A stretch of 49,144 nucleotides of DNA from Myxococcales bacterium (lineage in GTDB: Bacteria > Myxococcota_A > Polyangia > Polyangiales > Polyangiaceae): NCBI GenBank assembly GCA_013297655.1, contig JAAFHV010000027.1, positions 5,895 through 55,038 of the forward strand. The letters run 5' to 3'. Made by a program: the position numbers and the translations under genes. Each line of letters starts with the position of its first letter. Within the stretch, counting starts at the first letter, position 1. Below the pieces are notes generated by a model that ran no database searches, was not told the DNA's origin, and saw nothing but the letters and a program-made list of their open reading frames with translations. This document shows, one piece after another, positions 38,913 through 47,330 of this stretch.

Positions 38913-38986
38913 TCCGGCGTCGTCTAATGGCAGGACAGCGGATTTTGATTCCGCTTATCATGGTTCGAATCCATGCGCTGGAACCA
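38913..38986 (+). tRNA. tRNA-Gln (anticodon UUG)
   Basis: The cloverleaf is complete. Acceptor TCCGGCG pairs with CGCTGGA (one G-U); D-stem GTC/GAC; anticodon stem GCGGA/TCCGC around TTTTGAT, with anticodon TTG at 38945-38947; variable loop TTAT; T-stem CATGG/CCATG around TTCGAAT. The discriminator is A, and CCA is encoded at 38984-38986. It reads CAA codons and is a single gene, not part of a tRNA cluster. Confidence 0.97.
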
Positions 38987-41560: not shown

Positions 41561-42226
41561 ATGCGTCGAACGGAGCGTCTTTTTGCGCTGAGCGAGCTCC
41601 TCCGGGCGCGACGGACGGGCATCACCGCGGAGGCCATCGCGGAGCGCTTCGGGGTGACGATGCGCACGGTCTACCGCGATCTCGACGCGCTCCGCGCCGC
41701 GAGCCTCCCGGTACGGTCCGACCGCGGCCCCGGTGGCGGATACGCGCTCGACAAGAGCTACGCCCTGCCGCCGGTGAACTTCACCGCGCGTGAGGCGGCC
41801 GTGCTCGCCGCGCTCGGAGGGTTCGCCGCTTCGATGCGCGCCCTCCCCTTCACCGAGACGCTCGCGAGCGCGCTCGACAAAGTACGGGCCGCGCTGCCTC
41901 GTCCCGCGATGCGCGATCTCGAGGCCAAGCTGGGGGAGCTCTCCTTCGTCGGCGTGCCGCAGGTGCCCGTCGCGGACGAGGTGCGGCGAGCCGTCGAGCG
42001 CGCGTGGTTCGAGAACGCGCCCCTGCTCGTCACGTACCACGCGACGAGCGGCGAGCGCACCGAGCGTACGGTCCGCCTCCGTAAGGTCGTCATGGATCGC
42101 CGTGAAACGCGCCTCTTCGTGCACGACGTGGAGCGCGACGCCGAACGCGAGCTCCTCCTCCATCGCATCGAGCGCGCCAAGGTGCTCAAGCCGTTCACGA
42201 GCATCGAGAGCCCCGCGGCGACCTGA
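41561..42226 (+). CDS. HTH-11/WYL-type transcriptional regulator
   Basis: The protein has 221 residues starting at the ATG at 41561, giving the usual MRRTERLF beginning; an ATG at 41546 is less likely. The N-terminal DeoR-like winged helix (ITAEAIAERFGVTMRTVYRDLDAL) is typical of WYL regulators, followed by RGPGGGYAL. The C-terminal part follows WYL-domain spacing, but the WYL tripeptide reads RLF. WYL domains sense nucleic acids or nucleotides and often control antiphage or stress genes. The stop is 25 bp before the C13 peptidase start, so the two are cotranscribed. Confidence 0.88.
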   Translation: MRRTERLFALSELLRARRTGITAEAIAERFGVTMRTVYRDLDALRAASLPVRSDRGPGGGYALDKSYALPPVNFTAREAAVLAALGGFAASMRALPFTETLASALDKVRAALPRPAMRDLEAKLGELSFVGVPQVPVADEVRRAVERAWFENAPLLVTYHATSGERTERTVRLRKVVMDRRETRLFVHDVERDAERELLLHRIERAKVLKPFTSIESPAAT

Positions 42227-42251
42227 GCTACGGTCTTTGCATGAGGCCGTC

Positions 42252-44300
42252 GTGAACGTCATCCCGGCGTGGGTCTTCGGCGCGGCCGCTTCCGCCGGCG
42301 TCCTGATCGCGGCGCACGCCGTCGCACGAAGACGGCGCGCGAAGACGTACGTCGACCGTGCGTTCGAGCTCGTACGCGACGGGCGCCCCGGGCGGGCCCG
42401 CGCGCTCCTTCGTCTCGCGGCGCGCATCGAGCGACGCGGACGCGATGCGCGCGCCGTCCTGTGCGAAGCGTTGGCGCTCTTCTGGCAGGGCTCGTTCGAC
42501 GCGGCGCTCGGTATGTCTTGCCTCGCGAGCGCCGAAGCGGAGGCAGAAGGTGCCGCCGCGAGCGAGGTCGGAGCGCAGGGGCGCGCGATCGCGGTGCTCG
42601 CGCTCGTCTTCGGCGAGGAGGTGGGCGGCGCGAGGGTGCTCTACGATCTCGCGTCGACCGAGACGACGAGCACGTCGATCCGCGAGCTCACCCTCCCGTA
42701 CGTCGGCGCGATCGTGTCGTTCCACGAGCGGCGCGAGAGCGGCACCGTCGACGACGAGGCGTTCGAGGAGGCCGGCGTGCTCGGTGTGCGCGAGGCCCAC
42801 GGCGCGCTCGCGACGTTTCACCTCGCCGCGCGGGCGCACGCCGCGGGTGACGCCGACCGCGCACGCGAGCTCCTCTCGCGCGTCCACGAGGAGGCAGGTC
42901 ACACCTTCGTGCGGCGTTGGGCGCGTCACCAGCTCGAGGCGCTGGGTCCGCCCCGCGCGCGGCTCACGCCGACGAAAGATCCCGCGTTCGACGCGCTCGA
43001 CCTGTTTCGCGTGCCCCTCTTTCATCCCGACGCGATTCGACGAGTGACGCCCTCGGCCGGGCGCGCGGCGCTCCTTGTCCTCGTGTGCGCGGCCCTCATT
43101 TTTGCGCGTGCGCTCGCGCAAATCACTGAAATTGAACCCTTTTCCGCGGAGCAATTCGGGCGCGACCTTCTCCCGATCGGCGCGGTGGCGTTCGCGAGCG
43201 GCGTCGGTCTCCTCGGCCTGCGGGCTCGCCACGGGACGCGTTTGCGCTTCGTCACGGCGTGTTTCACGGCGATGCCCGCTCTCGTCCTCGGGTGCGTGGC
43301 CGCGAGCGCAACCCCATGGGGAGCCGGCGCGTTCGGGTTCCTCGCCGTGTGGGGGTTCGTGCTCACGCTGGCGCTCGTGCGCTCCGTCTCGCCCGCGGGG
43401 TGGCTGCGCGCGCTCGTCACGTCGAGCCTCGTGGTCGGGGGCTTCACCGCCGCGATGCTTTTTTTCCCGCCTACGCGCTCGTATCTCCCGCCCGAGCTGG
43501 AAGACGAGCTCACCGCCCTTCGCGACAGCCGCGCGGTCTTGAAGATGCGCCGCGAGCGCTTCGAGCAGAAAGACGAGGCCATGCTCGTCGCGGACGAGGC
43601 GGCGCTCCTCCCCGAGCGCGCGGGCACGACGGATCTGTATTTCGTCTCCTTCGCCGGATACGGCGCGCAGCGTGTGTTCGCGGCCGAGAGCCGCTACGCC
43701 CGCGATCTCTTCGACGAGCGGTTCGACACCCGCGGTCGCTCGATCGTCCTCGCGAACGAGGTCGGCCACACGGCTCAGCCGCGCGCGAACCGGCACACGC
43801 TTCATCGAACGCTGGCCGCGATTGGCAAACGCATGAACCCGAAGGAAGACGTGCTCTTCCTCTACCTGACGAGCCACGGCGACCAGAACGGGCTCGCGAT
43901 CTTCGACGGCGAGAGCTCAACCCTCAGCCCAGCCGACCTACGGAGCGCGCTCGACGATGCAGGTATTCTACACCGAATCGTGATCGTGGCTGGCTGCGAG
44001 TCGGGGGTGTTCCTCGAGCCCCTCCAGACGCCCACGTCGCTCGTCGCGACCGCCGCCTCGACGTACCGATCGTCGTATGGATGCTCCGACACGCGCTCGT
44101 TCACGGAGTACGGCGAGCGCGTATTTCGTGATCATCTCGCCCACGGAGAGCCCTTCGTCGCCGCCCTCACGCGCGCCAACGACGACACGATCGCGGCCGA
44201 GACCGCTCGCGGCGCGGCCCTCTCGCATCCGCGGCTCTCGGTCGGGAACGCGACCGCCACGAAGCTCGCTGAGCTCGAGGACCGCCTCGATTTGCGTTGA
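42252..44300 (+). CDS. Membrane-embedded peptidase C13 (legumain/caspase-like) with helical N-domain
   Basis: The protein has 682 residues from a GTG at 42252 preceded by GAGG. A short N-terminal hydrophobic helix is followed by a cytosolic alpha-rich region to about 260 that looks TPR-like (ARALLRLAARIERRG, ALALFWQGSFDAAL). Five hydrophobic helices span about 272-405. The C-terminal 230 residues are a C13 domain: LYLTSHGDQNG (His-542) and VIVAGCESGVF (Cys-582), the same spacing and GCESG motif as legumain, then YGCSDTRSFTEYGERVF. The protease domain would be on one side of the membrane. C13 enzymes share the caspase fold. The substrate is unknown. Confidence 0.88.
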   Translation: MNVIPAWVFGAAASAGVLIAAHAVARRRRAKTYVDRAFELVRDGRPGRARALLRLAARIERRGRDARAVLCEALALFWQGSFDAALGMSCLASAEAEAEGAAASEVGAQGRAIAVLALVFGEEVGGARVLYDLASTETTSTSIRELTLPYVGAIVSFHERRESGTVDDEAFEEAGVLGVREAHGALATFHLAARAHAAGDADRARELLSRVHEEAGHTFVRRWARHQLEALGPPRARLTPTKDPAFDALDLFRVPLFHPDAIRRVTPSAGRAALLVLVCAALIFARALAQITEIEPFSAEQFGRDLLPIGAVAFASGVGLLGLRARHGTRLRFVTACFTAMPALVLGCVAASATPWGAGAFGFLAVWGFVLTLALVRSVSPAGWLRALVTSSLVVGGFTAAMLFFPPTRSYLPPELEDELTALRDSRAVLKMRRERFEQKDEAMLVADEAALLPERAGTTDLYFVSFAGYGAQRVFAAESRYARDLFDERFDTRGRSIVLANEVGHTAQPRANRHTLHRTLAAIGKRMNPKEDVLFLYLTSHGDQNGLAIFDGESSTLSPADLRSALDDAGILHRIVIVAGCESGVFLEPLQTPTSLVATAASTYRSSYGCSDTRSFTEYGERVFRDHLAHGEPFVAALTRANDDTIAAETARGAALSHPRLSVGNATATKLAELEDRLDLR

Positions 44301-44315
44301 TCACCCGCGAGGCGC

Positions 44316-47300
44316 CTACTTGCGGACCTCTTCGCGCGGGATGCGCCTCGACTCCACCCGCGCGCCGCGGCGGAGCTTCACGACCACGTCGTCGGCGAGT
44401 GGCCCGGTGAGCCGCGTGCGCGCTTCCGCGATCGTGTGCACCGCGACCCCGGACACCTCGAGCAAAATGTCGCCAGGCTCAAGGCCGGCGCGCTCCGCGG
44501 CGCTGCCCGCGACGACCGAGACCACGCCGACCTCGGGGTTCGGTCCGCTCGCCTCGCCGAGGGTCACCGCGACGCCGCCGGCACCTTTCGCGTCCGGATC
44601 GTTGCTCTTGCTCTTCTCTCCGAGCACGACCTTCACGTCCTTCTGCGTGCGGCCCACGTAGAGGCGAACCTCGGCGCGCCCTTGCCCGCGTCCCGGGGCG
44701 TAGGCCTCCAGCGACACGATCCCCTGCGGGAGCTCCCCGAGTCGGAAACGGCCACGTGCGTCGGTCTCGGCGACACCCGGAGGCGGCGCGCCCGCGACGA
44801 GCACCACCGGGACCGTGTCCTTCGCGACGCGCGCGAGCGGCACCGGCTGACCTTTCCCATCCACGACGGTGCCTTCGACCACCGCCTCTTCGTCGAGGGT
44901 CACCCGCGGCACGGTCGTCGCGCGTCTCCCGCGGCTCGCCGTCACCGTCACGTCGAGCCGCTTGGGCGCAAACCCCGGCGCCCGAACCGCGAGCCGGCAC
45001 GCCCCGGAGGGAGCACCTTTGAGCGTAAAATCGCCCTCTTTGTTGGTTCGGGTGTGGTGCGCGCCGTCCTCGCAATAAAGAGTCACGAATGCATCGGAAA
45101 TAGCGTCGCGGCGGTAGGTGCGGACCTCCCCCTCGACGTCCTCGCTCGGGAGGAGCTCGACGCGGAGCTCGGTCGCGCTATCGGGGAGCTCGAGCGCCTT
45201 GGTCGCCGCGTGAGGAGCGATGACCTCGACATGGAGCGCGAGCCCCTTCGCCCCTGGCACCCTCGCTTCGCCGCGTTTGTCGGTGAACACCGTCGCGCGG
45301 AGGGGCGCCCCCGGATCGAGCGAGCCTACCGTGACCTGCGCTCCGTCGATTCCATCGCCGCGCGCGTCGAGCACACGGACCGGGAGATCGTCGCGTGGGT
45401 CCGGCAGCACGACCTTCATGCTCGCGCGCCCCCCTTCCGGCACCTTCGCTTCGACCCGCGCGACGCTGACGCCGCCGCTCGCAGTGCGTGGACGTTCGAC
45501 GACGATCGTGACGTCTTCCGGCAACGACGCGAACGCAAATGCGCCATAACGATCCGTGCGTGTCATGCGCTCGAGCGTGCCGCGGGTCGCCATCGCGACG
45601 ATCTCCGCGCCCTCCACCGGGCGATCGTGCGAGTCGACGACACGACCTTCGAGGAGACCTCCCGCCCGCATCGTGATCGTGAGGTCGGCCGAGCCGCCAG
45701 GGACCAGATCGACGAAGTCGCTCGAGGCCTCCACGTACTGCGGATGACGCACGATCGCGCGCACTCGCCCAGGAGTGACCGGTGACGCCCGGAAGCGTCC
45801 GTCGCGCTCCGTGATCCAGCCTTCGCCCGGACCGAGGCCGGTGGTTCGCGCCCCACCGCCGATGCCATGCGGCGTATCCGGGAGCGTGCCCGGCATGACC
45901 CCGAGCTCACCCGCCGGCACGAGAGGTCGCGGACCGCCGAGGGCGACGTCGAAGCCTTGCGCACGAAAGCGGGTTCGACGTGGATCGTCGGCGACGGGCA
46001 TGCCGTGGAGGTCGGTGCCCACGATCTCGACCCTCGCACCGTCGACCGCGAATCCTCGGCCGTCGAGCACTTTTCCGACGATCGTTCCCGCCCGCTCGAG
46101 GACCACGTCGACCGGCCCCTCCGTCACGACCACGGTCGCTGACACGTAACCTTCGTGGCTCGCCATCACACTCGCGCCGCCCCTTGGAATGGGCCCGAGC
46201 ACGACGACTCCGTTCTTCGCGGTCACGCCCTCGACCGGAAACGCGGAGAGCCCCCCCTCGGCGAGCACCACGCGCGCACCCGCGAGTGGACTCCACGCGT
46301 CGCGGTCCGAGTCTCCGTCGAGGACGCGGATCGCTACCGACACGCCCTGCGCGAGCTTCAACGTGACGTCTTTTTCCTCGCCGCGCGCGACGCTGACCGC
46401 GAGCTCGGTCGTGGACGCGAGGCTGCCCGATGTCGCGCGGAGCGAGTAGGTGCCCTCCGGGAGCGAGCCGATGCGCACCTGGCCCCCGGCGTCGGTCTCC
46501 GCGCTTCGTGAGGGCCAGAGCACCGCGGAAGTTATCTCGACCCGCGCGTGCGCCACCTTCGCGCCATCGGGACCGAGGACGGAGACCCGCAGCGCGGCGA
46601 GCTTCTTCATCACCACATGCACCTTCGCCTCGTCCGTTGCTTGGCGAACCTCGGCGGTGTCGAAGCCGAACGCGCTCACCGTGACGGCGTAAGGACCGTC
46701 TGCGAGTCGAGTGACGATCGCGTGGCCGTGGTCGTCGGTCCGCGCGGCGACAGGGAACGGATCGCTCGCTTGCACCTCGATCGTCGCGTTCGGGACCCCG
46801 TCGCCCGCCTCGTTCGTCACGGTCACGTCGAGCGCGCGCGCCGGCACCATCGACAAGTCGAGGGAGCGCGCGCCGTTCACGAGCATCACCATCCGCGACG
46901 CACGCGCGAGCCCCTGCGCCTCCGCCACGATCCAGTGCTCGCCCGGTGGGAGCTTGGTGAGGCTCGCGTGGCCGTCCTTCGTTTGCACGTCGGCCGCCGA
47001 GTACGCCTTGCCTTCGAGGATGGTGAACGCCCTCACGCGCGCGTCGGCGACCGCTTCGCCGCGACTGCCGTCGACCGCTTTGCGAAAGAGGGACACCTCG
47101 AGCGAAGCGGGTCGATCCGAGACCTCAGGCGGAAGCGGGGGGGCGGTCAGCTCGACCGTGAGCGGACGCAGCCTCGATCCAGGAACCATCGCGACGACGA
47201 GCAGCGCGAAGGTATGTGCGAGAACCACCGCAAACGTGCGCAACCGCTCGCGCACCTTCGAGGCGTCCCAGAGGGGGATCCTCGTGGGAGGTCGTTTTTT

Positions 47301-47330
47301 CTCCTGCGTCATCGATTCACGACCGGGCAT
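44316..47330 (-). CDS. Large carboxypeptidase-regulatory-repeat protein with C-terminal PDZ domain
   Basis: The protein has 1004 residues (998 if it starts at the ATG at 47312; neither start has a clear ribosome site). A membrane helix at about 30-51 (FAVVLAHTFALLVVAMVPG) anchors it, with the rest outside. From 75 to about 890 there are around ten CarboxypepD-reg-like (prealbumin-fold) modules, each reading roughly G-x-V-D-A-x-V-x-(I/V)-...-TD-x-x-G-x-(F/A)-x-(L/I)-...-LP-x-G. The C-terminal 85 residues are a PDZ domain (VVSVVAGSAAERAGLEPGDILLEV in outline). This is an adhesin-like or scaffold architecture. It converges with the C13 gene with 15 bp between stops. Confidence 0.85.
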   Translation of the reverse strand: MPGRESMTQEKKRPPTRIPLWDASKVRERLRTFAVVLAHTFALLVVAMVPGSRLRPLTVELTAPPLPPEVSDRPASLEVSLFRKAVDGSRGEAVADARVRAFTILEGKAYSAADVQTKDGHASLTKLPPGEHWIVAEAQGLARASRMVMLVNGARSLDLSMVPARALDVTVTNEAGDGVPNATIEVQASDPFPVAARTDDHGHAIVTRLADGPYAVTVSAFGFDTAEVRQATDEAKVHVVMKKLAALRVSVLGPDGAKVAHARVEITSAVLWPSRSAETDAGGQVRIGSLPEGTYSLRATSGSLASTTELAVSVARGEEKDVTLKLAQGVSVAIRVLDGDSDRDAWSPLAGARVVLAEGGLSAFPVEGVTAKNGVVVLGPIPRGGASVMASHEGYVSATVVVTEGPVDVVLERAGTIVGKVLDGRGFAVDGARVEIVGTDLHGMPVADDPRRTRFRAQGFDVALGGPRPLVPAGELGVMPGTLPDTPHGIGGGARTTGLGPGEGWITERDGRFRASPVTPGRVRAIVRHPQYVEASSDFVDLVPGGSADLTITMRAGGLLEGRVVDSHDRPVEGAEIVAMATRGTLERMTRTDRYGAFAFASLPEDVTIVVERPRTASGGVSVARVEAKVPEGGRASMKVVLPDPRDDLPVRVLDARGDGIDGAQVTVGSLDPGAPLRATVFTDKRGEARVPGAKGLALHVEVIAPHAATKALELPDSATELRVELLPSEDVEGEVRTYRRDAISDAFVTLYCEDGAHHTRTNKEGDFTLKGAPSGACRLAVRAPGFAPKRLDVTVTASRGRRATTVPRVTLDEEAVVEGTVVDGKGQPVPLARVAKDTVPVVLVAGAPPPGVAETDARGRFRLGELPQGIVSLEAYAPGRGQGRAEVRLYVGRTQKDVKVVLGEKSKSNDPDAKGAGGVAVTLGEASGPNPEVGVVSVVAGSAAERAGLEPGDILLEVSGVAVHTIAEARTRLTGPLADDVVVKLRRGARVESRRIPREEVRK

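Follow-up and report, generated by a model that had tools for sequence, protein, structure and literature searches.

Bacterial C13 peptidases have been studied little. Our literature search turned up no functional study of one beyond Abrp, the C13 peptidase of Acinetobacter baumannii. According to reviews, its mutation or deletion alters membrane permeability and susceptibility to tetracyclines, chloramphenicol, and fosfomycin, and they conflict on the direction of the effect (PMC8003822, PMC11615727, PMC10203620). The other systems used here for comparison are legumain (MEROPS C13; human structure 4n6o and Arabidopsis structure 5nij) and GPI8/PIGK of GPI transamidase.

We analyzed a stretch of DNA of 49,144 nucleotides (the window) from a soil myxobacterium in which a gene for a membrane-bound C13 peptidase follows one for an HTH-WYL regulator. 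Like the Abrp-like protein of A. baumannii, the window protein has five helices before the C13 domain and an intact His/Cys pair. Compared with the A. baumannii protein, the N-terminal helix and TPR-like region are extra parts, and the neighboring genes differ. With legumain the protein shares the caspase-like fold, the HG and C-x-SG motifs, and the SSY/SFGC segment. Unlike legumain, it is membrane-bound, has no C-terminal prodomain (it ends at residue 682, the end of the domain), and carries Ala580 in place of the Asn-binding Glu of the S1 site. The likeness to GPI8/PIGK lies in the C13 domain, the membrane association, and the exoplasmic side (predicted here), whereas transamidase partners and a GPI pathway appear to be lacking and the helix bundle precedes the domain. 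The window protein also offers a bacterial point of comparison for both enzymes. The features are as follows.

41561..42226, + strand: HTH-WYL transcriptional regulator, 221 aa (translation; Pfam HTH_11 and WYL)
42227..42251, + strand: intergenic gap, 25 bp, with GAGG a few bases 5' of the peptidase GTG
42252..44300, + strand: C13-family membrane peptidase, 682 aa, GTG start (PF01650, E 1.7e-14)
42258..42314, + strand: N-terminal hydrophobic helix, residues 3-21 (hydropathy)
42327..42941, + strand: TPR-like helical repeat region, residues 26-230, predicted cytosolic (TPR_19 below cut-off; model; Foldseek)
43068..43466, + strand: five membrane helices, residues 273-291, 305-323, 333-351, 358-376, and 387-405 (hydropathy, AlphaFold)
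43611..44297, + strand: C13 (legumain-fold) peptidase domain, residues 454-682, predicted periplasmic (Pfam, AlphaFold, VIA-align)
43875..43877, + strand: codon of catalytic His542 (SHG), invariant in 54 homologues
43995..43997, + strand: codon of catalytic Cys582 (GCESG), invariant in 54 homologues and aligned with legumain ACESG

Fold, catalytic residues, and domain layout

Judged from its residues, the catalytic site appears complete for a C13 (legumain/GPI8-type) cysteine peptidase. The match to Peptidase_C13 scored 54.4 bits (cut-off 22.8), all 54 homologues match the same Pfam family, and the protein has the His/Cys arrangement of clan CD that characterizes family C13. When the sequence alone was compared with solved structures, it matched legumain at E 0.012, with His542 and Cys582 aligned to its catalytic pair and the SSY segment also aligned; a profile of 36 sequences improved the match to E 5e-9. 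Ser608 and Cys611 are invariant in the 54 homologues, as are the catalytic His and Cys, the loss of which in most homologues would have counted against the sequence-only proposal.

The modeled domain has the legumain fold. AlphaFold, run on the 682-aa protein with the 54 homologues, produced a model whose pLDDT averages 79 over the full length and is approximately 96 in the peptidase domain. Aligned with VIA-align, this domain matched legumains at Z 21 (about 205-214 residues, rmsd 2.6-3.0; for 4n6o_A, Z 21.3 and rmsd 2.7 over 205 residues), metacaspases at Z about 20, plant peptide ligases at Z about 20-21, and PIGK at Z 19.9.

Two residues near the catalytic Cys distinguish the protein from its relatives. 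The sequence-only reading had pointed to GCESG as the legumain motif. This needs a correction, since Glu583 is unusual in the bacterial family: only 2 of the 54 homologues have Glu at this position and 51 have Tyr or Phe. The residue two before the Cys, which is Glu in legumain, is Ser in 52 of the 54 homologues and Ala580 here, so legumain's preference for Asn should not be assumed.

The remaining domains were also largely as first described. The earlier account of an HTH-WYL-like regulator, a 25-bp gap, and then a 682-residue protein agrees with the coordinates and with Pfam, and the C-terminal C13 domain with His-542 and Cys-582 was recovered by Pfam. The five membrane helices were confirmed at residues 273-405, with a sixth hydrophobic helix at residues 3-21; helices, Pfam match, and fold together support the description of a membrane-coupled C13 protease. 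The proposed TPR-like N-domain fared less evenly. Pfam TPR_19 matched at E 0.02, under its cut-off. The region modeled apart with its one close relative (two-sequence AlphaFold) gave stacked helix pairs with pLDDT mostly 70-90, and TPR proteins dominated the Foldseek match list of this model (best E 2.4e-3). "TPR-like" is a fair name for such a model, and assignment to a specific family is not supported.

Orientation in the membrane and likely function

From the charges of the loops and from relatives with unrelated anchors, which converge, we strongly infer that the peptidase domain faces the periplasm. In the 54 homologues, the six segments that flank the five helices have Lys/Arg fractions of, in order, 0.125, 0.043, 0.157, 0.058, 0.206, and 0.072. 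By the positive-inside rule, this alternation places the segment before the bundle in the cytosol and the peptidase domain in the periplasm. The N-terminal helix is followed by six Lys/Arg and is predicted to be N-out, C-in. Homologues with a single anchor carry export-type sequences just ahead of the C13 domain, although start codons at some of these loci are mechanical calls: a lipobox or lipobox-like sequence in several (LMAGC/LLAGC in Xanthomonas; loci L013, L030, and L061) and a signal-peptidase-I-like sequence in two (L077 and L086). The homologue of Pseudomonas aeruginosa has a lipobox, MORN repeats, and then the C13 domain. The C13 domain thus seems to be exported by three routes (helix bundle, lipobox, and cleavable signal). 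These routes point the hunt for substrates to the periplasm and make a neglected family testable.

The same evidence bears on the opposite orientation, in which a cytoplasm-facing, caspase-like signaling protease would be activated through the TPR region. Such an arrangement would put TPR region and peptidase on one side of the membrane, a simple adaptor-protease design, and the fold is common to caspases. Given that both the loop charges and the exported single-anchor relatives indicate the periplasm, we consider it quite improbable. A protease whose predicted topology puts it outside the cytoplasm is likewise a poor fit with a caspase-like intracellular death effector.

The A. baumannii homologue provides the one lead on function. 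It is a protein of 483 aa (QCP22175) with five membrane helices and a C13 domain and has 33.6% identity to the window peptidase domain over 220 residues (E 1.7e-38). It is probably Abrp itself, because it is the sole C13 place found per A. baumannii record. Taken together, the Abrp lead and the orientation predicted above point best to a peptidase for the processing or quality control of envelope proteins. As a whole, we think it probable, though well short of certain, that the window protein is an inner-membrane C13 peptidase that faces the periplasm and cleaves envelope proteins, with its TPR-like region in the cytosol. The catalytic domain would be kept in the periplasm by the N-terminal helix and the five-helix bundle, the TPR-like region would recruit a cytosolic partner or report the state of the cell, and the cleavage of periplasmic or membrane proteins would serve maintenance or processing. 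In this genome, the peptidase may be co-transcribed with the WYL regulator.

Two related functions were weighed against envelope-protein cleavage. One is a GPI8/PIGK-style transamidase or sorting enzyme that cleaves exported proteins at a C-terminal signal and passes them on to an acceptor in the envelope. The structural matches to PIGK and to plant peptide ligases, the predicted exoplasmic side, which is like that of GPI8, and a membrane bundle that could gather substrates are all consistent with it. However, hydrolytic legumains match at least equally well, the fold cannot separate the two activities, and genes of a sorting pathway are not conserved among the neighbors of the homologues; we consider this enzyme unlikely. 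The other, to which we give the same low weight, is a transmembrane signaling protease in which a cytosolic TPR sensor would control a periplasmic legumain/GPI8-like enzyme through the five-helix bundle, as a bacterial counterpart of GPI8-type processing or sorting of exported proteins that is WYL-controlled in this lineage.

The WYL gene and the question of defense

The regulator resembles BrxR, PafBC, DriD, and SiwR in having HTH and WYL domains. Unlike these, it is short (221 aa), and its orthologues in the family have no consistent link to defense. HTH_11 (E 2.4e-13) and WYL (E 4.8e-6) both exceed the Pfam cut-offs, and the WYL domain ends at residue 208. Judging from the surrounding sequence, the gene has an alternative start at an in-frame ATG (41546). 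A scan of the 25-bp gap (42227-42251) found no terminator-like site, and a sigma-70 promoter scan found nothing. From the short gap, co-transcription of the two genes is plausible. Co-transcription is no evidence for a shared function. This genome has eight WYL matches and just one C13 gene.

The two genes are not conserved partners. No WYL gene was detected at any of the 80 homologous C13 loci by six-frame translations and then by a 55-sequence profile that finds WYL paralogues and that very divergent WYL genes could escape (of three held-out divergent WYL genes it recovered one and missed two, which belong to this genome). At least 1 kb of upstream sequence was available at 77 of these loci, at least 3 kb at 70, and at least 1 kb of downstream sequence at 75. 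Conversely, orthologues of the window WYL protein (counted at E below 1e-50, with the host genome itself among them) are present in 37 of the 108 genomes of the family at 47-65% identity. Their neighbors vary (NUDIX/NrtR, superoxide dismutase, GST, kinases), and no conserved ancestral partner was found among them. In the only other genome of the family with the peptidase (G011), the WYL orthologue and the peptidase are on different contigs. The link between the HTH-WYL gene and the peptidase is local and probably recent. Both the WYL gene and the TPR region, the latter seen in two genomes only, are lineage-specific additions.

The location of the peptidase genes does not suggest a role in defense. 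The nearest neighbors of the homologues are diverse housekeeping genes, and partners recur only among near relatives; the A. baumannii copy sits among tsaB and fghA and the P. aeruginosa copy among ubiX and mpl. The window is not a defense island, its genes being mostly of housekeeping or envelope types. No PADLOC model matched the peptidase. Among the PADLOC matches listed for the window (25 of 40 families; PD-T4-6, mad, and others), most were to kinase-type models, and we read them as a generic Ser/Thr kinase. The expectation that homologues would lie in defense islands thus found no support in these mixed neighborhoods.

These results bear on the idea that phage or DNA damage lifts WYL repression and that the protease then kills or disables the cell. 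The adjoining same-strand WYL gene suggested it, its product matches the PADLOC CRISPR-associated WYL model (E 3.4e-36), and BrxR-type WYL regulators lie together with defense systems about half of the time (PMC9122601). However, no BrxR-family homologues were found in Deltaproteobacteria (PMC9122601), and the PADLOC results, the lack of WYL genes at the homologous loci, the wide occurrence of WYL orthologues without C13, their separation in G011, and the predicted periplasmic orientation all stand against it. We consider a WYL-controlled defense or death effector very improbable, and the sequence-only proposal of a WYL-controlled defense effector largely fails against homologous loci at which no WYL neighbor was detected and whose neighbors are not defense genes. 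The fallback offered with it, a housekeeping role, is closer. This removes a misleading defense label.

We also rejected C13 matches as phage genes. One matching record (L182, CAKLQH020000046.1) is filed as Acinetobacter phage MD-2021a. Its gene order (tsaB, methyltransferase, C13, fghA) is that of an A. baumannii replicon, and it therefore seems to be bacterial DNA deposited under a phage name.

Distribution and modular relatives

The peptidase is a patchily distributed member of a known, little-studied C13 family, and the initial interpretation was half right. Scanning genome_contigs with the sequence alone brought up no relatives, and the homologous loci came from an alignment-based scan (100 matches, 80 kept). 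Most of them come from Beta- and Gammaproteobacteria, and the rest include Geomonas. C13 peptidases of bacteria have a scattered occurrence in Pseudomonadota, Thermodesulfobacteriota, and Myxococcota. Within the family of the host, 2 of 108 genomes have the peptidase, as do a few others in the phylum. Weak profile matches (E about 1e-4 to 1e-7) occur in many Myxococcota genomes and may be other clan CD proteins.

This distribution, together with the long tip branch of the window peptidase in a C13 tree that was quick and has weak deep support, could indicate a horizontally acquired accessory gene without a regular role in the lineage. Set against this are the open frame, the intact catalytic residues, and a relative in another genus with the same layout, N-domain included (33% identity). 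An accessory gene seems to us a doubtful explanation, and we retain the periplasm-facing envelope peptidase as the preferred reading.

The N-terminal parts of these proteins differ. A YcxB-like domain (PF14317) was present in five C13 homologues (L062 4570-6696 and four others). With the TPR-like and MORN parts, it indicates that the family exchanges N-terminal modules. At locus L006 (G296:C220:8854-11005), one open frame (ORF 46-1962) appears to fuse a C13 domain that has no membrane bundle to an unrelated N-terminal protein whose end carries a CxxCH-like motif. At locus L180, on plasmid pMNOD02 of Methylobacterium nodulans, the C13 gene is annotated at approximately 160 aa and the match starts upstream, so the gene may be truncated or its start misplaced.

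Two other features of the window were noted. The sole tRNA gene, for tRNA-Gln (anticodon ttg), is at 38913-38986 on the + strand. Convergent with the peptidase gene, on the - strand at 44316-47330, is a gene whose 1004-aa product combines nine CarboxypepD_reg repeats with a PDZ domain at the C-terminus.
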